Shown piece after piece: positions 2,954 through 57,207 of a stretch of DNA of 64,000 nt. Each line of letters opens with the position of its first letter. Positions within the stretch are counted from its first letter, which is position 1. Source of the DNA: a bacterium (GTDB lineage: Bacteria; UBP6; UBA1177); assembly GCA_017405875.1 (NCBI GenBank), contig JAFQZM010000029.1, positions 1-64,000 on the forward strand. The letters are read 5' to 3'. The notes beneath the pieces are model-generated. The model saw only the letters and a list, made by a program, of their open reading frames with translations. It was not told where the DNA came from and did not search any database. A program made the translations under genes and the position numbers.

Positions 2954-4693
2954 TTAGTTTATCTTTACTATTTCAGCACTTGAATTCCGGTACTGCGGCA
3001 TGCATTCGCCTACCGGCGCACCGATGTAGGTCGGATCGGAAACTACGAACTTTCTGCCGTCCAAATCGAAGTAAGAGCCGTAGACCTCTTCATCACCGAA
3101 GTTTACAGCTGTCGCCAGATGCTGCGGATAGTGAAGGAGCACGACTTCAAGCCCGAGAAGCTCTCTTACCAGAATCGCGAACAGAATAGAGCGGTCTTCA
3201 CAGTCGGAATACGGATAATAGAAAGTTTCGTCGCCGAAAAGAGGTCTTTCATAGCCGAACTGTTCCTGATCTGTCTGGTATTGAAAAGCTGTCTGCACGA
3301 AATTCATCAGAATATTTGCCGCGTCAAGTTTGGTTTTGCCGCTTATCTGCGCTCTGAGTGCCGGATAGAGTGTATTTTTTATCTCTTCACTCAAGGAAGC
3401 ACGGACATAATCGTCCCAGCTGCCGCTCACCGGATAATCATTGTAGAAATCGATCAGATTTTTGTTGGTAATTACTTCTGCAAATGTATCCTGATACCTT
3501 CTTGACTGGAAGATTTTGCCACTGCCTTTGGACTGCCCCAGTCTGGGTGTTCCGGGCATTTTCAGCGACGCTGTCTTTTCGCGCGGAAAACTCGTTTCAT
3601 ATACCTGGTAAGTACGGCTCTGTCCGCGGGCTTCTTTATCAAGAATGTAATACTTCTTACCGTCACCTAAAATAAAATATGGATAAGTGTACAAATCAGT
3701 TCTGAAAGGAACAAGCAGGATCAGCTTGTCGCCGCTTCTTGCAAGGCGTACTTTGTATCCTGACTGAGCCAGAACAAACATCTGCAGCAGAACTGCCTCA
3801 TTGCTTTCTCCAAGGAAATGTTCACTCATAACGCGCAGCATATCGATATAGCCCCAGTCACCGAGTCTGAGATCATCTTTCAGATCGAAACAGTCTGAAA
3901 GCAGAATGTCGAAATCTTCCGATGACAACTGTTTCCAGACTTCAGCAACAGCTGCTTCTGAAACGTCAGGCAGCGAAAAACGCATCGAATCATAGAAGTG
4001 AACTTTGCAGCTTGCACCGTGATAAAGGAAATTATAATCTCTTTCATATTCTTCGATGATTCCCTCAGCCATGATCGGGTCACCTGCCGCATTGAATCTG
4101 CTGTGTTCAGTCGTCGCCATTATCGGGTCACCTGCTGCGTTGAACCTGCTGTGCTCAGTCGTAGCCATTATCGGGTCGCCTGCGGCATTCCTTCTCATAA
4201 TCGGATCGCCCGCAGCGTTTTTCATGATGGGATCTCCGGCCATGATCGGATCACCCCCATCGTTAAACCTTGCGACGGGTGCAACAGGCTTCGGTTCGTC
4301 ATAACTTTCAGCTTTTACAATTTTATTATAAGACAATTTGACGGCAGTTGTCCATTTATCATCCTTTTTCTCGTAGGGCTTTGGCGGCTCTTTGCTTTTT
4401 GGAACCGGAATCGCGGCATTTTTTTTGCGCGTTGCCCATTTCTTTTTCATCATGTCGGCGAACTTTTCGTTCACTGAACGCCTGTAGGCATCATATTCCT
4501 GCTGCTTTTTCGTTTTGTACTTTTTGTACTGTTGCAGCATATTCTGCTCGTAATCCTTTCTGCTTTTAGCTTTCTCTTTTTTGAACTCTTCTTGAGCTTT
4601 TGCCTGACGAGCCTTGTATTCCTGAAAAGTTTCGGAATATATCGGACTGATCAGAAAACATGCACAGACTGCAAATAAAATCATCCTTTTCAT
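2954..4693 (-). CDS. Secreted transglutaminase-like protein with coiled coil and GDPIM repeats
   Basis: A 579-residue exported protein. A signal peptide (about 1-20, cut after IYS) is followed by a Lys/Glu/Gln-rich segment likely to be coiled coil (21-90), a Pro/Lys linker, and six copies of the pentapeptide GDPIM (about 146-208), two of them inside a perfect 16-residue tandem repeat. The C-terminal third looks like the transglutaminase/cysteine protease fold: Cys498 in SDCEDRS, His525 in PQHLATAV and Asp553 in SDPTYIG form a plausible catalytic triad. In that superfamily members cut or cross-link peptides. The substrate is unknown. It lies 29 bases downstream of the membrane-anchored protein at 4723-5325, which may be its partner. 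The GDPIM block recurs in an otherwise unrelated lipoprotein at 27000-28643. Confidence 0.75.
   Translation of the reverse strand: MKRMILFAVCACFLISPIYSETFQEYKARQAKAQEEFKKEKAKSRKDYEQNMLQQYKKYKTKKQQEYDAYRRSVNEKFADMMKKKWATRKKNAAIPVPKSKEPPKPYEKKDDKWTTAVKLSYNKIVKAESYDEPKPVAPVARFNDGGDPIMAGDPIMKNAAGDPIMRRNAAGDPIMATTEHSRFNAAGDPIMATTEHSRFNAAGDPIMAEGIIEEYERDYNFLYHGASCKVHFYDSMRFSLPDVSEAAVAEVWKQLSSEDFDILLSDCFDLKDDLRLGDWGYIDMLRVMSEHFLGESNEAVLLQMFVLAQSGYKVRLARSGDKLILLVPFRTDLYTYPYFILGDGKKYYILDKEARGQSRTYQVYETSFPREKTASLKMPGTPRLGQSKGSGKIFQSRRYQDTFAEVITNKNLIDFYNDYPVSGSWDDYVRASLSEEIKNTLYPALRAQISGKTKLDAANILMNFVQTAFQYQTDQEQFGYERPLFGDETFYYPYSDCEDRSILFAILVRELLGLEVVLLHYPQHLATAVNFGDEEVYGSYFDLDGRKFVVSDPTYIGAPVGECMPQYRNSSAEIVKIN
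4070..4258 (-). repeat. GDPIM peptide-repeat block, copy 1
   Basis: Six GDPIM motifs are encoded here, with spacers growing from one to eleven residues (GGDPIM, AGDPIM, KNAAGDPIM, RRNAAGDPIM, then twice ATTEHSRFNAAGDPIM). The DNA is rich in GATC because Asp-Pro-Ile-Met is often spelled GAT-CCG-ATC-ATG. A second block, of six motifs, is at 27426-27533. Confidence 0.9.
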
Positions 4694-5554: not shown

Positions 5555-8500
5555 CTACCTTACACAACGGACATTTCTTTGCATCTCCTTCATAGGATAT
5601 GTATTTGTAACCATAAAAGGAGTAGCCACAAATATTCCTGTTCCGAAATGGACAATGTGATGAACTGAAGAAGACCAAAATTCTAAACTTGGCATGTCGG
5701 GAAAATCTGATGCTGGAGAAACATTGTCATAATTTATAAGCGAAGCGAGTTCGTTTCTGTTAGGTAATCTCCAATCGGAATATCCGGCATACGTCAGGTT
5801 CTCGCAATAAGAAAGAGCCTCTTTCCAGGTTTTGCCTGAAACATAATCTTTTTGCCACATTAAGCCTGTTGTCGAATCTGTAAGAACAATATTGCTGTTT
5901 ACTGTTGTGGTCGTAAATGAAGAAAGAGATAATAAATCCTTTCCCCAGACGCATCTAACCTTAACTCTATCGTCCAATGTTTTTGAAAGCGTTGATACAA
6001 AATCAAAAGCTGTGGTGATGGAATTCTCTCCCAATATCCATGCGTATTCCGGGTCTGAAACGGAGGTTTTTGAACTCCAAAGTGACATGTGTGAGATTTC
6101 TGTGAAATAATTTGGGTCATCTAATGCTACATAAATTGTTAAAAGTTCCTGAGGTGTAGGCAAGCGCCATCCGCTATCATGTCCGCCATAGTTTAAGTTA
6201 TTACAGTAATTTACAGCTTCTTCCCATGAGTAATTTCCACTTGAAATTTCTTGTTGCCATTCTAGTCCAGTGTTGTGATCAATAACGACATTTTGATCAG
6301 AAATCGTTTCGACACTCAAAGTCACAGGGATACACTTTCCTTTAGCGGCATATTGTGCATCCTGACCGTAAAAGTCAGCACTGGGAGAAGTCGGACAAGT
6401 CATTGTTTGACCATAGTTGCCTCCGTTGTGACATACTGTAACACCAGTGCAAATATTACCTAAAGCTTTTTGTTGTTTACACTGTGGATAGCTCCAGTAA
6501 TATCTATTGTCACATTCACAGGAATAATCCCGCCATGAAGTTGCATTGCAGACTGCTGTTGAATTGGCAACTTCATCACAAGGTTCGTAATCACATGGGC
6601 TTGTGCATTGGGAATTATACCAATAGTGAGTATTATCACATTTATATCTGCATTCACTTGAACTTGATTCTTCATTATAAGTACCTGTTGTCGTCGGAAC
6701 CCAGGTTAATCCGTTCCATGTCTGGGTAATGCTTGAAACACTGTTCCATGTCGCATTTGTGATTAAGCCGGTACATGAAGCAGTTTTTGTGTTGGATATA
6801 CAACTTGCTCCACCGTTTTCAGTATGGTAACTATCTGAACATTTATATCTACATTCTGAAGTGCTAGAAGTCGTATTGTATGTAGTTATATTTGATGGAG
6901 TCCACTCACTTCCGTTCCATGTCTGAATTATTGCTGAAACTGCATTCCAGCTTGCATTTGCAGGAATATCAGTGCAACTTGCAGTTCGTGTGTCAGCCTC
7001 GCATTTTGAACCGTCCCATGTGTAGTTGGTCTTGCATTTGAATCTGCATTCTGCACTGCTTGCAGTCGTGTTGTAGCTTCCGGTTGTTGACGGCTGCCAA
7101 CTTGATCCGTTCCAAGTCTGAGTGATGCTTGAAGCAGTGTTCCACTGTGCGTTTGACGGAAGTCCCGTGCAGTTTGCTGTTTTTGTGTCTGCTTCACACT
7201 TTGAGTTCTTCCAACTGTAATTTTCGTTGCATTTGAAGCGGCATTCCGATGTGCTTTCGGCTGTATTGTATGTTCCTACAGGACTCGGCTGCCATTCTTC
7301 GCCGTTCCAGGTCTGTTCTATACTCGAAACGCTGTTCCAGCTTGCATTTGCAGGAAGTCCCGTGCAGTCTACTGTCTGCTTGCTGAATTCACATCTTGAG
7401 TTTTTCCAAACATAATTTGTGTTGCATTTGAACCTGCATTCCGATGTGCTTTCAGTTTCGTTGTAACTTCCAGCTGTTGTCGGCTGCCAATTTTCTCCGT
7501 TCCATGTCTGTGTTATGCTTGATGCGCTGTTCCAGCTTGCGTTCGCCGGAAGTCCGATGCAGTTTACTGTTTGAGTGTCTGCTTCACATTGTGAATTTTT
7601 CCAACTGTAATTGGTGTTGCACCTGAATTTGCACGCATCGGAATTTTCGCCGGTGTCAAATACAGCCTGATTCGACGGAATCCACTCCGTTCCGTTCCAA
7701 GTCTGCTGAACAGATAACGACGGACTTGTCCATGCTGCACTTGCCGGCAAGCCTTCGCATTCAGCAGTTCTTGTATTTGCTTCGCAGGTCGCCCCTTTCC
7801 ATGTGTAATTGGGGTTGCATTTAAAACGGCATTCCGACATGCTTTCTTCTTCGTTGTATGTTCCTGCCGCTGAAGGTAGCCATTCTACTCCGTTCCATGT
7901 CTGCATTATGCTTGAGGCCATATTCCATGCTGCATTTTCCGGAAGTCCTGTGCAGGCTGTTGTTTTTGATTCAGGTTCACACGAACTGCCTTTCCATGTA
8001 TAGTTGGTATTGCATACAAAACGGCACTCATCACTGCTCGGCTCTTCATTGTATGTACCTTCCAACGGTGGAACCCACTCCTGACCGTTCCAGCTCTGCT
8101 CTATTTTTGAAACAACGTTCCAATGAGAATTTTCCAGGAGCCCCGTGCACTTTGAAGTCTTTTTATTGATGCACTTATTGTCTTCCCAAATATAGCCGGA
8201 ATTACATTTGAAACGGCATTCGGTCTCGCTGGATTCTTCATTGTATGTGCCTTGTGTCGAAGGTGTCCATTCTTCACCGTTCCAAGTCTGTTCGATTTCT
8301 TCAGCTTTGTTCCATTTCGCATTCTCTGGAAGATCTTCGCACACTTTTGTCCTTTTATTTGCGACACAGTTGTTGCCTGAATAACCTTCGTGGCAGATAC
8401 ATGAAAAACTTCCGTCTTCGTTCGCACAGTCGGAATGCTCTGGACATTTGTTCAGCTCAGGATCGGCGCATTCGTCTATGTCCGCGCATGTATTTTTTGA

Positions 8501-9283
8501 ATTTATCTCATAGCCGTCGTCGCATTTGCATTCGTAAGTTTCGGGTCCTGTCGACTTGCAGGTTCCGTGACCGCACGGGTTGTTCCTGCAGGAATCAAAA
8601 TTGGTCGCTTTTATCGTAAGCGCCTTATTGCCGTTGTTGGAAGTTACGTGAAGTTTTGTAAGGTTTTCACCGTCACGCAGCAAAGTGCGGTCAATATTGA
8701 CAATAATTCCCAGCGTGTTGCCTGCCCCGAGATTGCCGGACTCCTTACTTATCGACTTTATCCATTCTGCAGTTTTGATGATCTCCCAGTCTATAGCAGC
8801 TGAACTGTCGTTGAAAATGTTGAAAGAACGAGAAACATCATCTACTTCACCGCCGAAATCAAGTTCATCAATATCGTTTCCTGCGTCATCCACGATTCTC
8901 AGAGTCGCAGATTCCTTCTTAAGCTGGACATCACGGCGAACCAACCTGTCTTTCACGGTTATAACAAAATCATCGATAAGGTCGGTGTAACCGGCTTTGG
9001 AAACGGTGATAGAATAGTCTCCTGATGCAAGATTCTGAAATTCAAACATTCCGTCTGAACCGGTCAGAGTCGTATCTCCGCCTGGACGAAGCTGAACATT
9101 GGCATTCGCAACGTCTTCACCTGTGACGAAATCTGTTACGTGTCCGTAAATCCCGCCTGTGCTGCCGGTATTAGTATTTCCTGAATCACCAGTTCCGCCG
9201 CTGCCCGTTGAACCGCCGCCGCAGGCAACGAAAATCAAACTAAAAACCAAAATCAAAAGTGCTGAAATAATTGAGCTTTTCAT
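5555..9283 (-). CDS. Large modular lipoprotein with EGF modules, nine Cys/Trp repeats and two DUF1566 domains
   Basis: A 1242-residue lipoprotein. In order: signal peptide with lipobox FVAC (18-21); Gly/Ser/Thr linker; CarboxypepD_reg-like domain (about 44-121); BACON-like domain (124-226); one EGF-like module (SCRNNPCGHGTC...) and one calcium-binding-type EGF module starting DIDEC (about 231-306); nine tandem Cys/Trp-rich units of about 66 residues (311-905); a Cys-rich link; and two DUF1566/Lcl_C domains with WRLP and LWSS/FWSSS motifs, ending NVRCVR. The head and tail match the neighbouring paralogues while the EGF modules and repeat number differ. A role in surface binding or adhesion is inferred from domain types only. 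Confidence 0.85.
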   Translation of the reverse strand: MKSSIISALLILVFSLIFVACGGGSTGSGGTGDSGNTNTGSTGGIYGHVTDFVTGEDVANANVQLRPGGDTTLTGSDGMFEFQNLASGDYSITVSKAGYTDLIDDFVITVKDRLVRRDVQLKKESATLRIVDDAGNDIDELDFGGEVDDVSRSFNIFNDSSAAIDWEIIKTAEWIKSISKESGNLGAGNTLGIIVNIDRTLLRDGENLTKLHVTSNNGNKALTIKATNFDSCRNNPCGHGTCKSTGPETYECKCDDGYEINSKNTCADIDECADPELNKCPEHSDCANEDGSFSCICHEGYSGNNCVANKRTKVCEDLPENAKWNKAEEIEQTWNGEEWTPSTQGTYNEESSETECRFKCNSGYIWEDNKCINKKTSKCTGLLENSHWNVVSKIEQSWNGQEWVPPLEGTYNEEPSSDECRFVCNTNYTWKGSSCEPESKTTACTGLPENAAWNMASSIMQTWNGVEWLPSAAGTYNEEESMSECRFKCNPNYTWKGATCEANTRTAECEGLPASAAWTSPSLSVQQTWNGTEWIPSNQAVFDTGENSDACKFRCNTNYSWKNSQCEADTQTVNCIGLPANASWNSASSITQTWNGENWQPTTAGSYNETESTSECRFKCNTNYVWKNSRCEFSKQTVDCTGLPANASWNSVSSIEQTWNGEEWQPSPVGTYNTAESTSECRFKCNENYSWKNSKCEADTKTANCTGLPSNAQWNTASSITQTWNGSSWQPSTTGSYNTTASSAECRFKCKTNYTWDGSKCEADTRTASCTDIPANASWNAVSAIIQTWNGSEWTPSNITTYNTTSSTSECRYKCSDSYHTENGGASCISNTKTASCTGLITNATWNSVSSITQTWNGLTWVPTTTGTYNEESSSSECRYKCDNTHYWYNSQCTSPCDYEPCDEVANSTAVCNATSWRDYSCECDNRYYWSYPQCKQQKALGNICTGVTVCHNGGNYGQTMTCPTSPSADFYGQDAQYAAKGKCIPVTLSVETISDQNVVIDHNTGLEWQQEISSGNYSWEEAVNYCNNLNYGGHDSGWRLPTPQELLTIYVALDDPNYFTEISHMSLWSSKTSVSDPEYAWILGENSITTAFDFVSTLSKTLDDRVKVRCVWGKDLLSLSSFTTTTVNSNIVLTDSTTGLMWQKDYVSGKTWKEALSYCENLTYAGYSDWRLPNRNELASLINYDNVSPASDFPDMPSLEFWSSSVHHIVHFGTGIFVATPFMVTNTYPMKEMQRNVRCVR
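6570..8353 (-). repeat. Nine tandem ~66-residue Cys/Trp repeat units
   Basis: Nine in-frame copies of a ~198-base unit. The coded pattern is C-x-G-L-P-x-N-A-x-W-N, then I-x-QTWNG-x-x-W-x-PS, then SECRFKCN-x-NY-x-W-K-x-x-x-C. Copies 5-7 are the most alike, which suggests recent duplication; copy 4 is the most divergent. Confidence 0.85.
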
Positions 9284-11352: not shown

Positions 11353-13584
11353 CTAATCCGCAGTTCTTACACAACGGACATTGTTTAATGAAGCCTTAGT
11401 GGTAAAACCATTATCTCCATTCGAGAAATCGACGAACACACCATCACTACCATAGGTGGTAGAAGACCAATAATAGCCGTCTTTAAAACTGCCTATCAAA
11501 TTTCTGTTGTTATAAACAATTAAAAGTTCCTCTTTCGTAGGAAGACGCCAGTCGGTTTGACCTGCTAAAAAGGAATAGTTGCATATATCCAGTGCAGTAA
11601 ACCAGGAACTCCCAACTCCTCCGTTTGCATCTTCCCGCGCAACTATCAGACCACGTGATTCAAGAATGACATAAGGCGGAAGTTGTGCTACAAAACTAAC
11701 AATATTTCCGTAAACCATAAGTGTCCCGACTTTTGTATAAGCTCTGACATAATAGGTCGCTCCAGTTTCGAGATCGCTGACTGTGCGTGCATAAGAACCC
11801 GTTCCTGTTCCGGATGCACTTACCGTAAGAACTCCCTCCTCATCAAGGGTCGGAACCTGCATCTTTCCATAAATAAATCCGCGCTCGGTGTAAGCCGGAT
11901 CACCAATGCTTTCTATCGTACCGTTGAATGTCGCGGTCGTATCATCAATATCAGACACTTCCTGAGTTGTTACAACAGGAAGAACCTTGCTGAAATCTAA
12001 CGTAACTTCATTGCCGTAAGATATGCTTTGACTGCTCAGCGCATAGGCGCGAACATAATAGATTTTATTCATTTCTAGTTCACTTACATTCACAGAAAAA
12101 TCGCCTGTTCCTGTGCCTGTGGCAACTTTCTTTGTGTCATCTTGTACCGTAGGATTGTGAACAGTCCCATATACAAAGCCGCGTTCAGTATATGCCGGAT
12201 CTCCCACACTCTCTATTGCACCGTTCAAAGTAGCAGTTCCACCGCTTATGCTTATATTTGTTGGTTCTTTGGTCTGAACTATTGGTTTTTCTGCATTAAA
12301 CTCCAATTTTACTTCATTTCCGTAACCAATTCCCGCCTCGCTTATTGCATAAGCACGAATGTAATAAATCGTGTTTATCTCAAGTTCCGTGACTTTGATG
12401 GAAAAAGCTCCCTCTCCGTTGCCGGTCACTTCTTTTTTGTTGTCGTCTTCCACTGCCGGGTTGTGATCGTGCCCCCAAACAAAACCACGTTCGGTATAGG
12501 CAGGATCGCCGATACTTACTATTGTTCCGTTGAATGTAGCTGTTCCGCTGCCGAAACTGATATTTGTAGGATGTTCGGTCGTCAGTTCCGGAAGACTTTG
12601 ATGAGGTTTGAAAGTTACGACATTCGTGCTGTAAGCAACTCCCGCTTCATTTATCGCATAACCTCTGACATAGTATTCTTCACCGAGCTCAAGCCCTGTT
12701 ACTGTCGCGGAATAAAGATTTTCTTCCGTGACTTTAGCCGTAAGCTGTGCGATCGTGTTTTCAAGTGTCGGATTCGACTCAAGTGCATACACAAAACCGC
12801 GCTCGCTATAGCTCGGAACGCCCTTCGTCAATATCTCGGCATTCAAAACTGCGGTGGAAGAAGTGATATTCGTTGTCTCCAAAGTGTTTAGTGTCGGAAG
12901 AACCGTGGCGTTTGTCGCCTTAACCTTGAGCTGCTTGTTGCCGTCATTGGATGTGACATGAATCGTCGTTACATTTTCACCGCTTTCCAAAAGGCTTCGG
13001 TCGATGTTCACGATGACACCCTGAGTGCCGCCCTCTTTAAGTTCGCCCGACTCTTTGCTGAGAGATGCAATCCAGTTGGCGGAAAATGAAATTTCCCACT
13101 CAAGTTTTTCATATCCGTCGTTGAAGATGTTGAATTGACGCGAAACATCGGAAAGTTTCTCTCCGAAATCAAGCTCGGAAATGTCTTTTCCGTTATCATC
13201 GACGATTCTCAGTGCTGCCGGAAGTTTTTCCAGCTGAACATCGCCTTTTGCTTGTTTACCGGATTCTACAGTGATGGAACTGCTGTTGTCGCTGAAACCT
13301 GTTTTTGTCACAAACAGAGTGTAAGTGCCGGCTGCAACTTCATTGAACTCAAACTGACCGTCACTGCCTGTAACCGTTTTCAAGCCTGTTGGCTGAAGTT
13401 CAACTCCTGCATTGATTATGGATTCACCGGTTGCCTTGTCGGTAACAATACCGTAAATCGAACCTGTTTCCCCAGAATCGTTGCTACCTGAACCGCCGTT
13501 GCCGGATCCTTCCGAACCGCCGCAACTGACCAGAAATGCAAAAACCGCGAAAACTGCAGTTAAAATCGATAGTGTTTGTTTCAT
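11353..13584 (-). CDS. Modular lipoprotein with FN3-like repeats and a DUF1566 domain
   Basis: A 743-residue lipoprotein. Lipobox FLVSC (about 17-21) and a Gly/Ser/Asn linker are followed by a CarboxypepD_reg-like domain and a BACON-like domain close in sequence to those at 1-423. The middle has about four repeats of roughly 90-95 residues with the pattern TATFNGTI-x-S-x-GDPAYTERGF-x-YG ... G-x-G-x-F-S-x-x-V-x-x-LE-x-x-x-x-YYVRAYA, typical of FN3-like beta-sandwich repeats in secreted proteins. A single DUF1566/Lcl domain (WRLPTKEELL, YYWSSTTYG, NNVRCVR) ends the protein. It swaps the Cys/Trp arrays of its paralogues for FN3-like units while keeping the head and tail. Confidence 0.85.
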   Translation of the reverse strand: MKQTLSILTAVFAVFAFLVSCGGSEGSGNGGSGSNDSGETGSIYGIVTDKATGESIINAGVELQPTGLKTVTGSDGQFEFNEVAAGTYTLFVTKTGFSDNSSSITVESGKQAKGDVQLEKLPAALRIVDDNGKDISELDFGEKLSDVSRQFNIFNDGYEKLEWEISFSANWIASLSKESGELKEGGTQGVIVNIDRSLLESGENVTTIHVTSNDGNKQLKVKATNATVLPTLNTLETTNITSSTAVLNAEILTKGVPSYSERGFVYALESNPTLENTIAQLTAKVTEENLYSATVTGLELGEEYYVRGYAINEAGVAYSTNVVTFKPHQSLPELTTEHPTNISFGSGTATFNGTIVSIGDPAYTERGFVWGHDHNPAVEDDNKKEVTGNGEGAFSIKVTELEINTIYYIRAYAISEAGIGYGNEVKLEFNAEKPIVQTKEPTNISISGGTATLNGAIESVGDPAYTERGFVYGTVHNPTVQDDTKKVATGTGTGDFSVNVSELEMNKIYYVRAYALSSQSISYGNEVTLDFSKVLPVVTTQEVSDIDDTTATFNGTIESIGDPAYTERGFIYGKMQVPTLDEEGVLTVSASGTGTGSYARTVSDLETGATYYVRAYTKVGTLMVYGNIVSFVAQLPPYVILESRGLIVAREDANGGVGSSWFTALDICNYSFLAGQTDWRLPTKEELLIVYNNRNLIGSFKDGYYWSSTTYGSDGVFVDFSNGDNGFTTKASLNNVRCVRTAD

Positions 13585-13609: not shown

Positions 13610-14494
13610 TTACCATCTGACACAGCGGACGGAATAACTTTCCGTAACAGCATCGCAATCCTGACCATGGTTATAAAAATATAACGAGATCGCACCTTGA
13701 TCGCATGAGGAAGAAGACCAATAGCCATCGTCCTCGCCAAAAATATTACCCGAAGCACCATATCTGTTAAGCGTGTCCAAGACATCTGCAGAAGGCAGAC
13801 TCCAATCAGAATAACCGCCTTCTGAAAGTTCGTCACAATAAGTCATTGCAGAGTTCCAATCCAAATCCTGACGTGCACGTGCCGACCAAATGTAGCCGTC
13901 GTACTTGCAAGGAGTTTTGTTACTGGCACCACATTCTGGAAAAACAGCTCCGCATTCATATTCGTCATACTCTGTTGCAATACAAACTTCATTTCCGCAA
14001 GGATTGGAATCGCACGGAGAGACACATTTACCACTCGACATATAACCTTCATTAAAATAACCATCATCACAAATGCAGTTGTAATTATCGTCAACAGTCC
14101 TTGCCTCACAGGTACCATGAGTACCGCAATGATTTTTTGCACACTTATTGGCAATCTGGACATCACGGCGCACCATTTTGTTTTCAACTGTAATTACATA
14201 ATCATCAATAAGATCTCTGTATCCGGCTTTAGAAACTGTCAGTGAATAGTCTCCAGGATTTATATTTCTGAACTCGAACATACCGTCAGAACCAGTTAGA
14301 GCAGTTTCACCGCTTGGACGAAGCTGAACATTTGCATTCGCCACATCATCTCCTGTATCATAATCTGTTACATGACCGTAAATACCGCGGGAATCACTTG
14401 CTTCACCGTCACCAGATCCTTCCGAACCGCCGCAACTGACTAAAAATGCAAGAGCTGCGAAAACCAAAAGCATTGAAATGATTGATTTTTTCAT
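13610..14494 (-). CDS. Lipoprotein with carboxypeptidase-regulatory-like, EGF-like and DUF1566 domains
   Basis: A 294-residue lipoprotein when started at the ATG at 14492-14494, which has GGAG nine bases upstream and gives a standard lipoprotein signal peptide ending FLVSC. An upstream extension would add 41 residues ahead of the signal and is unlikely. After a short linker come a CarboxypepD_reg-like domain (GIYGHVTDYDTGDD...), one EGF-like module (CAKNHCGTHGTC...CICDDGYF), a further Cys-rich segment, and one DUF1566/Lcl domain (WSLPSADVL, YWSSSSC, YSVRCVRW). It lacks the BACON-like domain, so it is a short form of the family. Confidence 0.85.
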   Translation of the reverse strand: MKKSIISMLLVFAALAFLVSCGGSEGSGDGEASDSRGIYGHVTDYDTGDDVANANVQLRPSGETALTGSDGMFEFRNINPGDYSLTVSKAGYRDLIDDYVITVENKMVRRDVQIANKCAKNHCGTHGTCEARTVDDNYNCICDDGYFNEGYMSSGKCVSPCDSNPCGNEVCIATEYDEYECGAVFPECGASNKTPCKYDGYIWSARARQDLDWNSAMTYCDELSEGGYSDWSLPSADVLDTLNRYGASGNIFGEDDGYWSSSSCDQGAISLYFYNHGQDCDAVTESYSVRCVRW

Positions 14495-14570
14495 TTTTCT
14501 TTTCTCCATAACAAATTCCTTGTGAGACATTTTAGAAAACGTCTCTTTGACCCGAACAAAGAACATGCCT

Positions 14571-14611
14571 AAATAAAAAACTTCCGCCGCTTCTTTAAAA
14601 AAGCGGCGGAA
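14571..14611 (-). terminator. Rho-independent terminator after the 108-aa lipoprotein gene
   Basis: TTCCGCCGCTT (14582-14592) pairs perfectly with AAGCGGCGGAA (14601-14611), an 11-bp G+C-rich stem with an 8-base loop. On the minus strand it is followed by G and a T-run (14575-14580), the standard intrinsic-terminator layout. It ends transcription coming from 14656-14982 and separates it from the lipoprotein gene at 13610. Confidence 0.9.
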
Positions 14612-14655
14612 AACCAAGAATCGGATCAGTCTTTTCTGTTAGAAAACTCGCGGTT

Positions 14656-26970: not shown

Positions 26971-26999
26971 TTTGCGTTATTTTTTTAGTGGAGGAGAAA

Positions 27000-28643
27000 A
27001 TGAAAAAGTTCTTGATTTCAATTTCTATGGTTTTGATCCTTGTTCTGACTGCATGCGGAAGCAGCAAAAAAGAGAAAGAGCCTGAAAACAACGGTGAAAA
27101 ACAGCAGATCACCTCTGCAAAAATGACCGTTTCGGCAACAGACGGCGGAACGATCGTCACTGAAGACGGCACCGCTAAGATCGAGATCCCGGCTGGCGCT
27201 ATTGATGAAGACACCGAGATCACGATGACCCTTTTTGAGAAAAAGAGTTTTCCGGATGAAGACAAACTAGTTTCAAAGGTCGTAACTTTCGAGCCGTCAG
27301 GCCTTGTTTTCAACAAAGATGTAACTATCACGCTCACTATCGACTCGACCTATACGACTGTTCCCGAAAATATGGCTGTAGTTCCGGCATTCCTCGCAGG
27401 AACGAAGTGGTCTCACCGCGAAGCAGGCGGCGATCCGATCATGGGCGGCGACCCGATCATGGCAGGAGATCCCATCATGGCGGGCGACCCGATCATGGGC
27501 GGTGACCCGATTATGGCAGGAGACCCGATCATGATGAATGCAGGACACTTCTCAAGCTACGCTTTCATACTTGTCGAAACCGGTTCGACACCTGTAGAAC
27601 CGACAACTGATCCGACAGAAGAACCCACCGGTGAACCAACGGAAGAACCTACGGAGGAACCGACCGAAGAACCCACTGAGGAGCCGACTGAAGAGCCCGA
27701 ATTGGTACAGGAATCCTACACTCTTTCCTGCACAGGTCAGACTCTCTGCTACGGAACCGACAACAAACCGCTCGAAGAGTGCGGCAGCGACCCTGAATCG
27801 GGATATTTCGGACAGGATGCACAGCGTACAGACACATGTGCGGCAAGAAACTTCACAACCGGCGGCACGAACACGAATCCGACCAACATCGACAGCAACA
27901 CTGGTCTTGAATGGCAGAAAACCTATAACGGCACGCTTGCGACATTTGAAGAAGCGGTAAGCTACTGCGAAGGTCTTGAATACGGCGGCTACTCAGATTG
28001 GAGACTTCCGGAGATTCAGGAACTTGCAACAATAATCGATTACTCTTTCTACAATTTCGTCGATGAGTCAGTTTTCCCCGATTTCCCGACGAGCGGTGCT
28101 TTCTGGTCGAACACTCTCTATGCTTCAGGTTCCAGCACGGTATCCCGTCTCGGAATAAACTTCTCTCCGAACACTATGACAGGAATCAACGACTATGCTG
28201 AGACCAAAACCAATTACGCCGTATGCGTCAGAGGCGAAGTTTTCAGAAAAGGAACAATCGTTTTCAATGAAGAACAGATCGATGGAGGTCTGGTAATCAC
28301 AGATACGGCAAGCGGACTTCAGTGGACAAAATCGAATGCAACTGGAAAGAAATGGCTCGAAGCACTTGAATACTGCGAAAACCTCACTTTCGGAGGCAAT
28401 ACAGACTGGAGACTTCCCAACATCAACGAACTTATTTCCATCATGGATTACGCAAAATATTCTCCTGCAACGGTTTTTCCGGATATTGACAGTATCACTC
28501 TCTGGAGTTCGACTTCAAAGACTCCCAAAAATGCGACAAGCTCTTCAACATCAGCTTGGAAAATGGCAACGAAAACAGGTCTTACAGCTCCTGCAACGAA
28601 AACCAGTTCATACAATGCAATGTGTGTAAGAGGAGGAAAATAA
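27000..28643 (+). CDS. Lipoprotein with ZU5-like domain, GDPIM repeats and two DUF1566 domains
   Basis: A 547-residue lipoprotein starting at the ATG at 27000, behind GGAGGAGAAA. Order: signal peptide with lipobox LTAC (16-19); ZU5-like beta domain (about 41-130, with GTAKIEIPAGAIDEDTEIT and VVTFEPSGLVFNKDVTITL); six uninterrupted GDPIM hexapeptides (143-178); a short NAGHFSSYAFILVE strand that fits the end of a ZU5-type region; a Pro-Thr-Glu repeat linker (about 198-235); and two DUF1566/Lcl domains with WRLPEIQEL and WRLPNINELI motifs. The GDPIM block thus interrupts or extends the ZU5-like domain. The downstream MFS gene begins four bases after the stop. Confidence 0.82.
   Translation: MKKFLISISMVLILVLTACGSSKKEKEPENNGEKQQITSAKMTVSATDGGTIVTEDGTAKIEIPAGAIDEDTEITMTLFEKKSFPDEDKLVSKVVTFEPSGLVFNKDVTITLTIDSTYTTVPENMAVVPAFLAGTKWSHREAGGDPIMGGDPIMAGDPIMAGDPIMGGDPIMAGDPIMMNAGHFSSYAFILVETGSTPVEPTTDPTEEPTGEPTEEPTEEPTEEPTEEPTEEPELVQESYTLSCTGQTLCYGTDNKPLEECGSDPESGYFGQDAQRTDTCAARNFTTGGTNTNPTNIDSNTGLEWQKTYNGTLATFEEAVSYCEGLEYGGYSDWRLPEIQELATIIDYSFYNFVDESVFPDFPTSGAFWSNTLYASGSSTVSRLGINFSPNTMTGINDYAETKTNYAVCVRGEVFRKGTIVFNEEQIDGGLVITDTASGLQWTKSNATGKKWLEALEYCENLTFGGNTDWRLPNINELISIMDYAKYSPATVFPDIDSITLWSSTSKTPKNATSSSTSAWKMATKTGLTAPATKTSSYNAMCVRGGK
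27426..27533 (+). repeat. GDPIM peptide-repeat block, copy 2
   Basis: Six perfect tandem 18-base units encode G/A-GDPIM without spacers. Codons vary between units (GAT/GAC, CCG/CCC, ATC/ATT), so the peptide, not only the DNA, appears to be conserved. The other block is in the transglutaminase-like protein at 4070-4258. Confidence 0.92.
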
Positions 28644-49544: not shown

Positions 49545-49551
49545 AGTGAGT

Positions 49552-50985
49552 TTTGAGAAGAGTAGAAATTTTAACGGTTTAGCAGCCCTTTTGTTCTTGA
49601 AAGGCAGTTTATTAATCTACAATAGTAGAAATTTTAACGGTTTAGCAGCCGCTTTGGGATTTAGAGGAGCAGAGGAAAATCTACAATAGTAGAAATTTTA
49701 ACGGTTTAGCAGCCTTTTAAAATTTCACCAAAAAGAGAAAAAATCTACAATAGTAGAAATTTTAACGGTTTAGCAGCCCATCTTCGATATTCTGAGCGTT
49801 CACAGATCTACAATAGTAGAAATTTTAACGGTTTAGCAGCCTCATACCAGCGGCGAGCGCATCATCTGCATCTACAATAGTAGAAATTTTAACGGTTTAG
49901 CAGCCGTATGACGCAATAAATCAGAGTTGGCTATCTACAATAGTAGAAATTTTAACGGTTTAGCAGCCTACACCGTCATCGTCGTAAGTGTCAACAATCT
50001 ACAATAGTAGAAATTTTAACGGTTTAGCAGCCGCCCCGGTCGAGAGTTCTTTTTCAATTCATCTACAATAGTAGAAATTTTAACGGTTTAGCAGCCCTTT
50101 CTTAGGGGGTGAACAATAAAACTTATCTACAATAGTAGAAATTTTAACGGTTTAGCAGCCCGAAAATCAGCGAAAGCAGTCAGCATGATCTACAATAGTA
50201 GAAATTTTAACGGTTTAGCAGCCGAATGAAACGGGCTTGCAACACGCATCTATCTACAATAGTAGAAATTTTAACGGTTTAGCAGCCGGCGCGATAGCCG
50301 AAATACGATACTTGATCTACAATAGTAGAAATTTTAACGGTTTAGCAGCCAAGCCGTTTGTCGTTAGTCCAAACTTCCATCTACAATAGTAGAAATTTTA
50401 ACGGTTTAGCAGCCAAAATACAGCCACGCGGAAAAATGCCCAAATCTACAATAGTAGAAATTTTAACGGTTTAGCAGCCGCACGAAGAAACAGTAGAAAA
50501 ATGCGCATCTACAATAGTAGAAATTTTAACGGTTTAGCAGCCATGAGGTGAAGAAAATGAACAGAGACGAATCTACAATAGTAGAAATTTTAACGGTTTA
50601 GCAGCCGACTGCTGCAATCTGTATGACACGGGATCTACAATAGTAGAAATTTTAACGGTTTAGCAGCCAAGAGAGGCGGAAAAACTCGCCGAACTTATCT
50701 ACAATAGTAGAAATTTTAACGGTTTAGCAGCCTTTATTTCACAAAAAAGTTGGATACTTATCTACAATAGTAGAAATTTTAACGGTTTAGCAGCCAATGG
50801 TTTTTTCAGGTTGTTCTTCTCTTATCTACAATAGTAGAAATTTTAACGGTTTAGCAGCCGAGATATTGCCGAAAAAACGGAATCAGATCTACAATAGTAG
50901 AAATTTTAACGGTTTAGCAGCCATGAAAAAATTTACTTTGTGGAGTGATATCTACAATAGTAGAAATTTTAACGGTTTAGCAGCC
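49552..50985 (-). CRISPR. Type V-A CRISPR array, 23 repeats and 22 spacers
   Basis: Twenty-three 36-base repeats with 22 unique spacers of 26-29 bases. On the transcribed minus strand the repeat begins GGCTGCTAAACCG and ends with the Cas12a-type handle stem-loop TCTAC-TATT-GTAGA-T. Repeats 2-23, counted from the left, appear identical. The leftmost (49552-49587) keeps GGCTGCTAAACC...TCTAC but has lost the GTAGA arm, as expected for the oldest, leader-distal repeat. This and the position of cas2 show that the leader is at the right end. No spacer obviously matches the window. Confidence 0.98.
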
Positions 50986-51262
50986 CCCTGTTTTCAAAAT
51001 GCGCTACAAACACATAATAAAATCAAGATGTTGCGAAACCAAATTTTGGATATCTTTTAGGGGGTGTATCCCATTAAAGATCAAAAAAAATCGTGCTAAA
51101 CCCTTTGTTGAAGCGGTTTTGGATAAAAACCTGCTTTTTTGGGAAGACTGCGGTTTGCTAAAAACCTATTCTATTCTCAGTTGTGAATGAACCGTCGATT
51201 TTTACTACTAAACCGCGAGACCGAACCTACATATTTTATGAAGCGAAGTCAAGACCTCATCA
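50986..51262 (-). promoter_or_regulatory. CRISPR leader
   Basis: An A+T-rich 277-base noncoding stretch between the first repeat and cas2. It carries the probable array promoter at 51014-51042 and two short pieces matching part of the repeat in reverse orientation: TGCTAAACC at 51094-51102 and TACTAAACCG at 51205-51214 on the plus strand. On the minus (transcribed) strand these read as antisense to the crRNA repeat, and the first is followed by a run of T's. Confidence 0.75.
51014..51042 (-). promoter_or_regulatory. Putative CRISPR array promoter
   Basis: Minus-strand TTGGTT (51037-51042), 17 bases, TATTAT (51014-51019). Transcription would begin about 20 bases before the first repeat. Confidence 0.55.
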
Positions 51263-51535
51263 TCACAAATACACGATATCCTGGTCTCGATGAATAGCAT
51301 TTCCGTATTTTTTCAGTTTCACCGCGGAAACATCAAAAATAATAACGCTGTCACCGCCTCCGAATTTTCTGGAGTATTCATCTTCAATTTTGAGGACAAT
51401 ATTATCCATGACTCTGTTGGAATTATTTACCTCGTAAACAGAATATTGAAGACGGATCGCACCGTTTCTTGTCAGCATTTTAGCAAATCTGCAGCGAAGC
51501 TTGTCATCGCTTATGTCATAACTTATCACCAGCAT
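51263..51535 (-). CDS. cas2: CRISPR-associated endonuclease Cas2
   Basis: A 90-residue ferredoxin-fold protein: LVISYDISDDKLRCRFAKML with the conserved first-strand Asp, then IRLQYSVYEV and VIIFDVSA. Cas2 dimers bridge Cas1 dimers during spacer acquisition. The start ATG shares one base with the TGA stop of cas1, so the two are translationally coupled. Confidence 0.95.
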   Translation of the reverse strand: MLVISYDISDDKLRCRFAKMLTRNGAIRLQYSVYEVNNSNRVMDNIVLKIEDEYSRKFGGGDSVIIFDVSAVKLKKYGNAIHRDQDIVYL

Positions 51536-52515
51536 CAGGCACTGAATTCAGGATAGTTTGTTATCGATTTTTTCTGCATGAAACAGCGATAATAATCCTG
51601 CACATACTTGAAAACTTCCATTTTGTAAGGAATCAGTGCGTCGAAAAAGACGCGGTAATAATCCTGGTTCTTTTCCAACTTCAAGAAATATTCACCCTTG
51701 CGGCAGTTAAAATCTTTTTCCGAGAATTGCTTGCGGTTAAATGCTGTCCGCACAGCCTTGTCCACAATACAGCGAAACGGCTCCATAATATCGCAGACAA
51801 GCGATTTTCGCTTAAACCAAGTCCGGTGAAAAATGCCGACATAAAGATCGAAACCGAACATTCTTAAAAAAGATTCAATGTAGTTGAAAAGTATCGTGTA
51901 TCCGATATCAAGCGTGACATTCATGACATCGCACTTTGTTCTTGGTCTCCTCGCGACCCAGTTCTGATTTTGAAAGTATGCCGAGAAATAGAGTTTGGAA
52001 GCCGCACCTTCGCATCCCATCAATTCAGAATAATCTTCGATATTTTCAACGTTTTTCATAATTGTTGACAACTGCGACTTTGCCTTTTCGGTAAGCTCGT
52101 CCTTTTTCCTTGTATCCTGCAAATTTTTAATTTGATTGGCGATCTTGTTTGCAACAATGATTTTTGCGATCGAGATGTCGTTTTTATCGAATTGATACTG
52201 TTTCTGGTGAAGCAAAAAATTCGCTTCGGCATAGTTTGCCCAAAAGAAAACAGCTCTTAAATTCGGTTTCATGACAACTAGCGAAACCCCGTATTTCTGG
52301 CACTTTTCAATCAACGGCGTGGTTATATGAATATGACCAATGACAAAAAGAGCCAGAATTTTTTGAAACGGCATTTTTGTTAAAGTTTTGGTTCCATCGG
52401 AATTTTCCACTTCTTCCTCAAGCAGCAGTTCCCCGTTGGAAACACGCAGATTGCGCTTGTTTACGCAGTTGATAACAAAAATTGTTCTGTATTCCAGATC
52501 TTTATGAGTAAACAT
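51535..52515 (-). CDS. cas1: CRISPR-associated integrase Cas1
   Basis: A 326-residue integrase of spacer acquisition, read from the ATG at 52513-52515 (MFTHKDLEYRTIFV). An upstream in-frame ATG would overlap cas4 by a further 150 bases with an improbable sequence. It has the beta-rich N-domain (NLRVSNGELLLEEE), then KCQKYGVSLVVMKPNLRAVF, and the helical C-domain (GCEGAASKLYFSAYF, NVTLDIGYTILFNYIES, VGIFHRTWFKRKSLVCDIME), which hold the conserved Glu and His of the active site. It overlaps cas4 by 14 bases. Confidence 0.95.
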   Translation of the reverse strand: MFTHKDLEYRTIFVINCVNKRNLRVSNGELLLEEEVENSDGTKTLTKMPFQKILALFVIGHIHITTPLIEKCQKYGVSLVVMKPNLRAVFFWANYAEANFLLHQKQYQFDKNDISIAKIIVANKIANQIKNLQDTRKKDELTEKAKSQLSTIMKNVENIEDYSELMGCEGAASKLYFSAYFQNQNWVARRPRTKCDVMNVTLDIGYTILFNYIESFLRMFGFDLYVGIFHRTWFKRKSLVCDIMEPFRCIVDKAVRTAFNRKQFSEKDFNCRKGEYFLKLEKNQDYYRVFFDALIPYKMEVFKYVQDYYRCFMQKKSITNYPEFSA

Positions 52516-53068
52516 TTTCCATTTCCGTTTTGTCGCAAAGGTTACAATAGATACAATGCTCGCATTTGTTCGGGTTCGGCGTGAAATTCTGCGCAGGGTC
52601 ATAGTTCCTGAAGCGGGTAATAAACTCTTCAAACTCTTTTTCGTCCTCAGAATTTGGCATATCAACAGGAATCATTTTATTTGTGGATATTTCATAAAAT
52701 GCAATGCTTTCAACCTGATAGCCCATTTCACGCATACAAAACATCTGTGCCCAAAGTTGATAGATTTGCCCCTGAAATATCTTTTTCAACTGGTATTTCC
52801 GTTCTATCAGCCTTTTTTCTTTTACCTTGTACTGATCGATTTTTCCCATGATACCGAAGCGCTCAGAGTAAACAGGCAGAGATAGCAGAACATCGGAACG
52901 GTTGGTTGAAGTTTTATTGTCCGTAGCCTCGTGGGCCAGTTTTCCTCTTGTCTGAGGCGATGCATGATACATCGTCTCATCTGTCTCCATATAGACATTA
53001 TGAAGATATATGGAATAAGGACAAAAGATGAAATCATTTAATGTGGAAATTGAAATATACTCTTCCAT
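52502..53068 (-). CDS. cas4: CRISPR-associated exonuclease Cas4
   Basis: A 188-residue RecB-like nuclease. A first Cys (Cys16, in FIFCPYSIY) and a C-terminal cluster CEHCIYCNLC (Cys169, 172, 175 and 178) form the iron-sulfur site; the nuclease motifs are KIDQYKV, ERKYQLK and QIYQLWAQM. In type V-A systems Cas4 trims and selects protospacers by PAM. Its ATG shares one base with the cas12a stop, and cas1 overlaps its end. Confidence 0.93.
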   Translation of the reverse strand: MEEYISISTLNDFIFCPYSIYLHNVYMETDETMYHASPQTRGKLAHEATDNKTSTNRSDVLLSLPVYSERFGIMGKIDQYKVKEKRLIERKYQLKKIFQGQIYQLWAQMFCMREMGYQVESIAFYEISTNKMIPVDMPNSEDEKEFEEFITRFRNYDPAQNFTPNPNKCEHCIYCNLCDKTEMENVYS

Positions 53069-56000
53069 TAGCCTTTTTTACGAGCTTCTTCCTGAACGAA
53101 CGAAAGCCATGCTACATTTTTTATTGGTTCAATTTTGAATTTTTTCCAGTCGCTTCCTTCAAACTGCTTGATCTGACGAATAAGCCAAAGCCCTTTTCTC
53201 GCAATATTGTAGGCTCCGTTTGCGTCTGCATCCTGCGGAAGAGTTTTGTCGGACTTCCTGCTGTCAAAGTGATTGCCGTTTTTATCGGCGACAGGAGAAA
53301 TCAGATAATCGGTTGAACTGTTCGTGATGCTGTTTCTCATCTGCACCGTCAATTTGAACAGATAAAGCAGTCTTTGGAAGAAATCTTTGCTTGTCTGCCT
53401 TACAATTTCGGCTTTAAGATCGCTGTTCAATGCGATTTTATAAGTCTCGAAATGCTTTTTGAATTCGAGTGTCAGATCGATTTCACGATTATCCCAGTTG
53501 TGATTTTTCTTTTCATTTCTGAAAGTTTCGATTCTTGAACCGATTGTGCAGACGCTCCATTTTGTCTGAGAATCTCCTGCTTTCACAGTGAAATTTTTAT
53601 AGTCGAAAGCAAACTCAAAATGATCTTTTTGCGGATTGTAGCAGATAGAATCAAACTTTGAGAAGAAATCCTTTGCCTTTTCGATGGATTCATAGCGCGT
53701 ATTAAAGAAGTTCACAAAACCTGTGACGGGGTCGATTTTGCTTGTATTCCAAGCCGGAACATAGAAGAGCATCCCGCTCTGTTTTCCTAATTTCTTGAAG
53801 CTCTCGAATTTGCCGGTTAACTGATATGCATGGAAAAGTCCGCCCGGCTCATTCGGGTCTTTCACCTGTTTGTCTACAAGGAAATTCAATTTGTCGATGA
53901 GCTTCTTTTCAAACTGCTCATAGACACTTTTTTCAACCTTCTGGCGACCGCGCATAAAGCCAGCGTTGAGATCTTCAAGAACAACAATCGCTTTGTATTT
54001 TATCATCAGCTGCGAAATTTTATGAATGACCTGACTGAGATAGCCGCTCTTTAAATCTTTAATGTTTTCAACTGATTGCCAGCTTCTGCGTGCAGCGTCT
54101 CTTTCTTTTTCCCTGTTATCAAGGAGTTTATGATAATCTGTGCGGTAATCATATTTGTTTTCACTGACGATTTCATTGAGTGAGATTTGTTCCTTTATGT
54201 TTCCGTTAAGGTCGATAACTGTTACATAGAGCAGATTCCTTTCACCGCGGTCAATTCCAATAATGTTCAGATCATCAGACTCTTTGATATAGTCGCAGAC
54301 AAGAGCGTTTATATTGTCACGATTTCCGGCTTTGAAATTGATCGTCATCGGCACATGGAATTGAAACTTATCTAAGGAATAGCGGCGGTCTTTAATGATT
54401 GGATATGCAAATTTATCTTTCAATTCTGTGTAGTGGTGACCGTGTTTCTGAATTTCATCATTATAGGTTATTGATTTCTTACGGAAGAAAACTTCAGCTT
54501 CGCCGTTGAGTTTGTAAACGACATCTTTAAGGTTGCTGCTGTCAAAAAGCATTCTCCAGTATAGCGTGTGTATATTCGGAGTTCCTTTGCTGTAAGAGGA
54601 AAAATCCTTGTTGTAGATCTGGAAAAGATAGAGTTTTCCCTCGTCAACGAGCTGATTGATATATGATGTTGATACGTTTACAAAGGAGATTTTGTATCCC
54701 TGCTGCTCGACCTCGCGATAAAATTGACTTATATCTTCATAAGATGAGGTGTCTGAAAAATGGAAGTCGAAATCTTGCCAGTCCTTATTCTTCCTGAGGG
54801 ATTCCTTCATGAAGTTGATCCATTTGCGGAGATCTTCCGGCTTAACATTCGGACCTTTCTTGAAAGTCTCTTTCTTTCTGATTTCTAAAATTTCATCACT
54901 CGGGGCGAATTCGTTGATGCGTGATGCTGCAAAGAAAACCTTGGGAAGCATTTTATTCGGACCGGGTAGAAGTTTATAAACCATTTTTTCATAGCAGTCG
55001 CCATCTGATTTTATCTCTTTAGAAGCAAAGATTTTGTTGTTATTTTTGTCCATGATTCCGAGATAATACATGCCATCCTTTCTGAGAAGAACACAAGTGT
55101 TGTCTGACTCTTTGTTCAGATCCCAGCCGTTCAAAAGAGTCGAATTTTTAAAGTTCAGCTTGATCTTTTCGGTCGAGTATGGCTTTCTCGTTAAATAGTT
55201 GCGGACTTTGTTGTATAACAGTGTAAAATTATTAAAGTTTTCATATAGCGGAGAAAATTCGCCGTAAAACTCGGCATTTTTGTCTGATTCGGTTCCCGAG
55301 CCGACCAGAGGTTTCACAAATCTTTGCAAATCCTTGATGGCATCAAGAAAATTCTTGATTTTTTCAACATTCTGCTTGTCGGCAGCAAGTTTATTGCCTT
55401 CTGGATAACTGCAATTCAAAAGGTCGCGAGTGTTGAGATATTGCTTTGAAATTTCAGCAAGCAGGTCGTTCCGGCTATTTTCAGGCTCGCCGCAATTCGC
55501 AAAGTATTGATCAACTCCTTTTTCTTCACCGGCTTCCTTGAGACATTCGTTGATAAAACCAATCGAATAGCTCTCCGCATTCGTCATCTTTTTGATGCGC
55601 TCTTCATACTTTTCAGCCTTTTCTTTGCTTTTTGGCGGATTGTTGCGTTTGAACCATTCCTCGATCGCATTGGGAATAACCGCATAAGAACCGAACATCT
55701 GCTGAGAAATGTTTGTAAGCTGCAAATCGTTGCTTATGTAAATTGTTTTAAGGTCAAAATCTCCAGTTCTTTTCAGAAGCCTACGAAGATTCCCGAAAAA
55801 ATCGACTTCTTCGCTGTTTAGCTCTGTGTAGCATTTTTGAATTTGTTCCAAAACTTCATTATCTGAAACAAAAGCCTCCGGAATCCATGAAAAAGCATTT
55901 CGGTCACTTAAAATCTGCTTAAAAAGCGGCTTGAATTTCGGAAGACGATCCTTTTTCTCGCTCTGCTGCTGGTTATAAAGGTTTATGTATTCATTAAGAC

Positions 56001-56784: not shown

Positions 56785-57207
56785 TTTTTCCTCCATTTAA
56801 ATATATATTTGCCACCATGTTTTTATCCATACAAACTTCAAAGAACCAACAAAAGATTTTCAATTTTACTCGCCAACTAAGGCATATACCGCCGAAGTTG
56901 GAAAAAATCATGTTTTTATAAAAGAAATCTTGCTCAATCTCCCCGCACTATACCCAAACTCATGCCCTTTTCAAGAATAACCACTTAATTTTATTAAATA
57001 ATTTTCCAATTTTAATCTATGCAGAGTTAAATAAAAACGCTTGATTTTGAGGCGTGATTTTAAACACTACTTTATAATTTGAAGATTAATATTAGATTTT
57101 TTACATTGACTTTGTTGCGTGAATATTTATTATTTGTTTGCAAACGGTTTATTTGGTAAAACGAGATGGAAAATGAAATTGTGATTCACAACGAAACAGA
57201 CTTGCAG
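56785..57207. other. A+T-rich intergenic region upstream of cas12a
   Basis: About 420 bases with no supported gene between cas12a and the azoreductase-like gene. It must contain the cas operon promoter on the minus strand, but I found no strong hexamer pair. One plus-strand promoter-like pair lies at 57106-57133. Confidence 0.6.
57106..57133 (+). promoter_or_regulatory. Promoter-like hexamers pointing antisense into the azoreductase gene
   Basis: TTGACT (57106-57111), 16 bases, TATTAT (57128-57133) on the plus strand. No credible plus-strand gene follows; a transcript would be antisense to 57208-57792. Confidence 0.35.

Follow-up and report, generated by a model that had tools for sequence, protein, structure and literature searches.

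The commonest target domain of diversity-generating retroelements is reported to be DUF1566, a domain of C-type-lectin fold, and several variable repeats per template have already been reported for such systems (PMC6642488). A surface lipoprotein diversified by a retroelement is known in Legionella (cited in PMC8144416), and targets lying far from the reverse transcriptase (RT) form a class that could not be detected in the metagenome survey of Roux et al., according to its authors (PMC8144416). The phylum UBP6, to which the genome studied here belongs, has been reported from the rumen (PMC7820578). We found no paper joining diversity-generating retroelements and UBP6 in a search of the literature outside most subscription journals and preprints. 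The present analysis concerns a set of predicted surface lipoproteins of a UBP6 bacterium, in which DUF1566 domains (Lcl_C, PF07603) are combined with tandem arrays of a Cys- and Trp-rich unit.

The window, i.e., the whole stretch of 64,000 nucleotides that was analyzed, encodes two such proteins on its minus strand, P0001 (1242 residues, 5555-9283) and its paralogue P0002 (831 residues, 444-2939). A first-pass annotation had described a unit of about 66 residues, repeated nine times in the former and four times in the latter. A profile built from the 13 units places nine of them at 6599-8350 and four at 1500-2279, in agreement with both copy numbers; the unit spans about 65 residues, with a spacing of 64-67 residues to the next. 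The repeats are read from the minus strand; over 6570-8353, the plus strand has 21 stops in frame 1. The motifs previously noted (LP-x-NA-x-WN, QTWNG-x-x-W-x-P and EC-x3-C) are all present in the consensus of the 13 units (TxxCTGLPANAxWNxxSSIxQTWNGxEWxPSxxGxYNExxSxxECRFKCxxNYxWxNSxCExxTx), together with a fourth invariant Cys, absent from that description, which lies about 10 residues past the third and completes the set C4, C45, C49 and C60. The 13 units match the profile with E values of 8.9e-34 to 1.7e-23, which are partly circular, the profile having been built from the same units; the search proposed in the first-pass annotation also recovered hundreds of units in genomes that did not contribute to the profile. 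The repeats are thus real and far beyond chance, an origin by chance or low complexity being ruled out by the profile scores and the conservation of the unit.

Examination of 417 distinct near-full units shows that the four Cys residues are conserved at 99% or more, followed by P30 (97%), W13 (95%), W28 (94%), P8 (93%), W55 (90%) and W23 (84%). Four Cys occur in 396 of these units, six in 15 and five in 6; the number is thus even in 411 of the 417, which fits disulfides. The unit fold was predicted with AlphaFold2, using 118 sequences as input for a two-unit model (units 6 and 7 of P0001) and 100 for a model of unit 6. Both point to a confidently predicted all-beta module, with a mean pLDDT of 97.3 and a pTM of 0.78 for the pair and a pLDDT of 90.4 for the single unit. 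The Cys spacing and the positions of the hairpins suggest that C49 pairs with C60, bridging the last hairpin, and C4 with C45. Foldseek searches of the PDB with the one- and two-unit models returned no significant relative (best E values 8.7 and 6.6), a BFVD search gave no match at E of 0.001 or below, and a VIA comparison yielded no structure at a Z of 5 or more for either model. The lack of a known fold in the PDB does not prove that the fold is new.

The first-pass annotation had also called the domain possibly undescribed, no match to a common domain being apparent, and this requires some modification. The window units are uncovered by any curated Pfam or NCBIfam family at its cut-off (the NCBIfam scan giving no consistent match), and the PDB sequence and Foldseek searches were null; DUF5874 (PF19202), the closest curated family, nevertheless comes near. 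This family aligns to positions ~22-64 of the unit in window units 6 and 7, at 21.8 bits compared with a gathering score of 27.1 bits, and it exceeds the cut-off in one reading frame of a unit-bearing bin, L127 (27.9 bits). At E values of 0.01 or below, it is matched by 31 of the 118 two-unit fragments and 17 of the 100 single units (best 4.1e-7), so that roughly one in four of the scanned fragments shows a match, which takes in the C-terminal two thirds of the unit. The unit may therefore be a distant branch of DUF5874 rather than wholly new, to judge from these partial alignments. On the other hand, the N-terminal third of the unit, with C4 and LPxNAxWN, is left uncovered; the alignment extends over ~43 of the 74 model positions, and some genome matches fall in other registers. 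DUF5874 is not matched by unit 6 taken singly and is absent from the Pfam matches of P0001, and among the 28 genomes of the phylum it exceeds the cut-off in two, in both solely when neighboring matches are summed. DUF5874 is itself uncharacterized, and no paper naming it was found in the literature outside most subscription journals and preprints.

A further resemblance is to EGF-like and sushi (CCP) modules, which are likewise small, disulfide-rich, beta, tandem and extracellular, with a similar final hairpin. The end of the unit, C-x2-N/G-Y-x6-C, resembles the C-terminal hairpin of EGF; the best sequence match in the PDB (E 0.14) is an EGF-type domain of a merozoite surface protein, and the best VIA scores are with EGF and sushi proteins (1n1i, Z 3.2; beta-2-glycoprotein I, Z 2.4), in a range of Z 2.2-3.2 that the tool itself rates as noise level. 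EGF-like domains are defined by six conserved cysteines, however, whereas the unit follows a pattern of about C-x40-C-x3-C-x10-C with exactly four Cys in 396 of 417 cases, and sushi modules have a Cys spacing of their own, unlike that of the unit. The unit array of P0001 has no Pfam EGF or sushi match, sushi being unlisted for P0001 at E values up to 1, and Sushi/CCP (PF00084) is matched at E of 0.01 or below in only 3 of the 118 two-unit fragments. That the unit is a divergent DUF5874 member, or a small disulfide module of the EGF or sushi type, is a real possibility, though the less probable one in our judgment, and would be compatible with the role proposed below.

The modular composition of the host proteins places the units between an N-terminal anchor and C-terminal Lcl_C domains. 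Neither this anchor nor these heads had been recognized in the first-pass annotation, and the same applies to the retroelements found outside the window (see below). P0001 begins with a lipoprotein signal peptide (9221-9283), read by eye as a lipobox that ends at Cys21 (LIFVAC, followed by GGG). A CarboxypepD_reg module (PF13620; residues 45-121, 8921-9151, E 1e-11) comes next, then an Ig/BACON-like region and two EGF-like modules (residues ~230-308, 8360-8596; EGF_CA at 268-308, E 4.2e-9). Units 1 to 9 lie at 8162-8350, 7964-8158, 7769-7963, 7571-7768, 7379-7570, 7181-7375, 6986-7180, 6785-6985 and 6599-6784, respectively. The array is followed by a Cys-rich, EGF-like linker that was read from the sequence (about residues 896-940, 6464-6598) and by two Lcl_C domains (5948-6289, E 4.8e-20; 5558-5884, E 4.6e-25), the second of which ends in NVRCVR and the stop codon. 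P0002 has a P0001-like anchor (58% identity), four units (2085-2279, 1890-2084, 1689-1889 and 1500-1688) and two Lcl_C domains. The Lcl_C scores of the two proteins, 139.4 bits for P0001 and 150.3 bits for P0002, both exceed the Pfam gathering score of 34.9 bits. P0001 and P0002 are predicted to be surface lipoproteins, a localization judged from the lipobox, which was recognized visually or with a simple pattern.

Two additional paralogues are encoded on the same strand. The first (743 residues, 11353-13584) contains fibronectin-type-III (FN3) repeats in place of the units and one Lcl_C domain, and its N-terminus is 72% identical to that of P0002 over 224 residues; it also carries the sole Pfam BACON match, to BACON_2 and below the cut-off, the corresponding stretch of P0001 being merely BACON-like. 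The second (335 residues, 13610-14617) consists of CarboxypepD_reg, an EGF-like region and Lcl_C, without units. The same anchor and type of head are therefore joined by nine units in P0001, by four in P0002 and by FN3 repeats in the protein at 11353-13584, and it is chiefly these exchangeable middles that speak for the unit acting as a spacer. Elsewhere in the window, short tandem repeats coding for GDPIM-type peptides occur at 27428-27533 (plus strand) and 4067-4189 (minus strand), within two proteins that are predicted to be secreted and are otherwise unrelated (26988-28643, plus strand, with two Lcl_C domains; 2954-4693, minus strand). The window also contains a Type V-A CRISPR system, with Cas12a (TIGR04330, 1497 bits; 53068-56796, minus strand), a type V Cas1 (447 bits; 51535-52665, minus strand) and a CRISPR array at 49549-50986 with the repeat ATCTACAATAGTAGAAATTTTAACGGTTTAGCAGCC.

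The combination of units and Lcl_C extends well beyond the window. The profile identifies 70 units in 21 reading frames of the source genome (frames being distinguished by contig and frame length), and 18 of these frames also contain Lcl_C, for which 132 matches were found overall. Among 105 distinct closed ORFs with units, 95 have an Lcl_C-like domain, which in 84 of them lies within 15 residues of the C-terminus; a lipobox-like start, by a simple pattern, is found in 81 of the 105, as opposed to 80 of 2523 other ORFs. The counts over these 105 ORFs are partly biased, some loci having been retrieved through Lcl_C or retroelement queries, and copies from overlapping loci were counted once. We suggest that each unit, some 65 residues long, folds on its own into an all-beta module stapled by disulfides, and that tandem arrays would form a stiff stalk of adjustable length in surface lipoproteins: the N-terminal lipid anchor would fix the protein in a membrane, the array would project outward, and the Lcl_C domain or domains at the C-terminus, which have a C-type-lectin fold according to the literature, may bind ligands. 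A long stalk fits less well with the 39 of the 105 ORFs that contain a single unit and with the 21 of the 95 ORFs with both domains in which no Lcl_C follows the last unit.

Alternatively, the units themselves may bind, their conserved Trp and Asn residues holding plant or host glycans multivalently while Lcl_C adds specificity. The four strongly conserved Trp residues per unit, the rumen setting, the arrays of up to 14-15 units and the existence of single-unit proteins would suit such a function. Conserved Trp residues in a 65-residue module can equally be core residues, however, and the replacement of the array by FN3 in a paralogue that keeps the anchor and the type of head, as well as the location of adenine-specific variation in the heads, outside the units (see below), argue against it. 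We regard binding by the units as unlikely and retain the stalk as the preferred reading.

The source genome contains two RVT_1 genes, both outside the window and each adjoining Lcl_C genes, on contigs C14 and C46. Both cassettes comprise a target gene, the RT and a template repeat 129-134 nt in length; between target and template lies an Avd-sized ORF of 128 residues (with a weak 23S_rRNA_IVP match in one case, E 0.023). The RTs, with RVT_1 scores of 73.3 bits (C14) and 66.6 bits (C46), carry the sequence IGNLTSQ, which we take to be typical of the RT class of diversity-generating retroelements. The two templates are nearly identical (about 97% over 123 nt), and adenine accounts for 37-38% of each; the C14 template translates as WSSSTQSDNTDNAWNVNFNNGNVNNNNKTNNNNVRCVR, that of C46 differing in one residue, and is rich in asparagine codons. 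In both cassettes the RT thus lies beside a template and a variable repeat that differs from it at adenines: all 16 mismatches of the C14 target, which has no units, and all 21 of the C46 target, which has four, fall at a template A. Compared with the C46 template, the same holds for two genes on contigs without an RT match, namely a 860-residue frame with seven units on C18 (19 of 19) and a 404-residue frame with one unit on C16 (20 of 20), which brings the three unit-bearing genes to 60 of 60 mismatches at template adenines. Near the start of contig C18 there is also a short tandem repeat of GGAATCA (L181, 1-120).

Other repeats are less specific with respect to the C46 template: 24/28 and 21/36 on C38, 28/37 on C2, 18/32 and 24/40 on C13, and 23/33 for a second repeat on C14. 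A control set of 23 Lcl_C 3' ends from the source genome, which did not include the genes on C46 and C18, was compared with the templates. In two of them, the C14 target and the gene on C16, every mismatch fell at a template adenine; in the others this fraction lay between 0.34 and 0.86. By this signature, three unit-bearing proteins outside the window appear to carry variable repeats of the retroelement type.

P0001 and P0002 could themselves be current targets of these retroelements, as they end in the same manner as targets (VRCVR and a stop codon) and their 3' ends agree with the C46 template over 22 nt (P0001) and 19 nt (P0002). Over the variable-repeat stretch, however, their mismatches to the template are not adenine-specific (22 of 47 at A in P0001 and 21 of 37 in P0002) and resemble those of non-target heads. 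This largely refutes their assignment as targets, which we consider very improbable. As judged from these alignments, the two window proteins belong to the non-diversified part of a repertoire, other members of which show variation of the retroelement type.

Among the 28 phylum genomes examined, 14 contain RVT_1, including the source genome. Of 20 RT loci examined, the two of the source genome among them, 11 show a repeat pair in which 75% or more of the mismatches fall at A, and in two of these 11 the neighboring target bears units (C46 of the source genome, and C35 of genome G004 with 21/22). Other specific unit-bearing genes are those of G004 C67 (21/24), G013 C34 (23/28) and G007 C3 (21/21 and 22/23 in one gene and 19/21 in another), the latter scored against the template of the source genome, as no RT was found in G007. 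Specificity is absent from other unit-bearing genes, for example those of G010 (C29, 16/24; C27, 18/29; C11, 22/32) and an 822-residue unit-bearing frame of G004 (20/29 and 28/37). The link between the stalk and diversified heads thus recurs in relatives and is not general.

The units themselves are widespread in UBP6, occurring in 25 of the 28 genomes. All 15 genomes of the genus have them, as do all four additional members of the family and four of the six further members of the order; of the three remaining genomes, two give matches, which are weak and partial only. Named relatives include bacterium UBP6_UBA1177 and UBP6_UBA1209. Weak matches in genomes G026 and G027 were rejected as full units, parts of the motif being missing, and a match in G033 (E 2.7e-4) looks spurious, consisting of one short match in a 67-residue frame. 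Outside the phylum, a Gracilibacteria bin has 10 unit matches, in frames that the standard code interrupts at TGA. At the one locus translated with table 25 the frame is open (L111, 2527-4269, plus strand), and the encoded protein carries Cys/Trp units behind a prepilin-like N-terminus, a setting unlike that of the lipoproteins. Among 379 genomes surveyed from the phylum of this bin, units are clear in that bin, with a weak partial match in one more. An Absconditabacteria contig contains tandem unit arrays followed by Flg_new repeats, and a high-GC bin labeled Deltaproteobacteria has single units in three long frames. These Patescibacteria and the high-GC bin thus combine the unit with other partners (Flg_new repeats, a prepilin-like N-terminus) and without Lcl_C, such that the association with Lcl_C is not universal. 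The bins L127, labeled Fermentimonas, and L120, labeled Treponema, look mis-binned, because the former closely resembles the Absconditabacteria locus L123 and the latter has UBP6-like Lcl_C and units. Occurrences outside UBP6 look sporadic and have perhaps arisen by transfer. A mobile or phage origin of the unit was rejected: units 6 and 7 have no match in phages or plasmids (tblastn, E of 0.001 or below), and none was confirmed in viral contigs.

Taken as a whole, we consider it probable that the array is a disulfide-stapled stalk between a lipid anchor and Lcl_C heads, a subset of which is rewritten by retroelements, and that the window proteins are non-diversified; from the evidence described, we infer surface exposure, disulfide pairing, stalk function, ligand binding and retroelement activity alike. 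The two retroelements would appear to rewrite adenine-encoded positions in some heads, including unit-borne ones and partly in trans, and P0001 and P0002 would be ordinary, non-diversified members of a large head family. More tentatively, and with rather less confidence than we would place in its absence, the unit could represent a new fold family whose standard role throughout the phylum is that of the stalk displaying the heads of a surface-variation system. In the source genome, the 132 Lcl_C matches would then be presented on swappable stalks (nine units, four units, FN3 or EGF), two templates would rewrite several heads near to and far from the RT, and P0001 and P0002 would be stable or retired members of that repertoire.

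The analysis adds a compact, confidently modeled and apparently uncatalogued module, predicted to be extracellular, whose clear boundaries should ease expression and structure solving, and it ties this unit to binding heads that are predicted to be diversified by retroelements in an uncultivated rumen phylum. The candidate targets distant from the RT would belong to the class that the survey of Roux et al., by its authors' account, could not detect (PMC8144416), and the genes form a concrete set that can be tracked directly for variation in rumen populations. Like the known DUF1566 targets of diversity-generating retroelements, the system has Lcl_C heads and multiple variable repeats per template; it differs in that the diversified heads sit on arrays of Cys/Trp units, and in a bacterium of the phylum UBP6.
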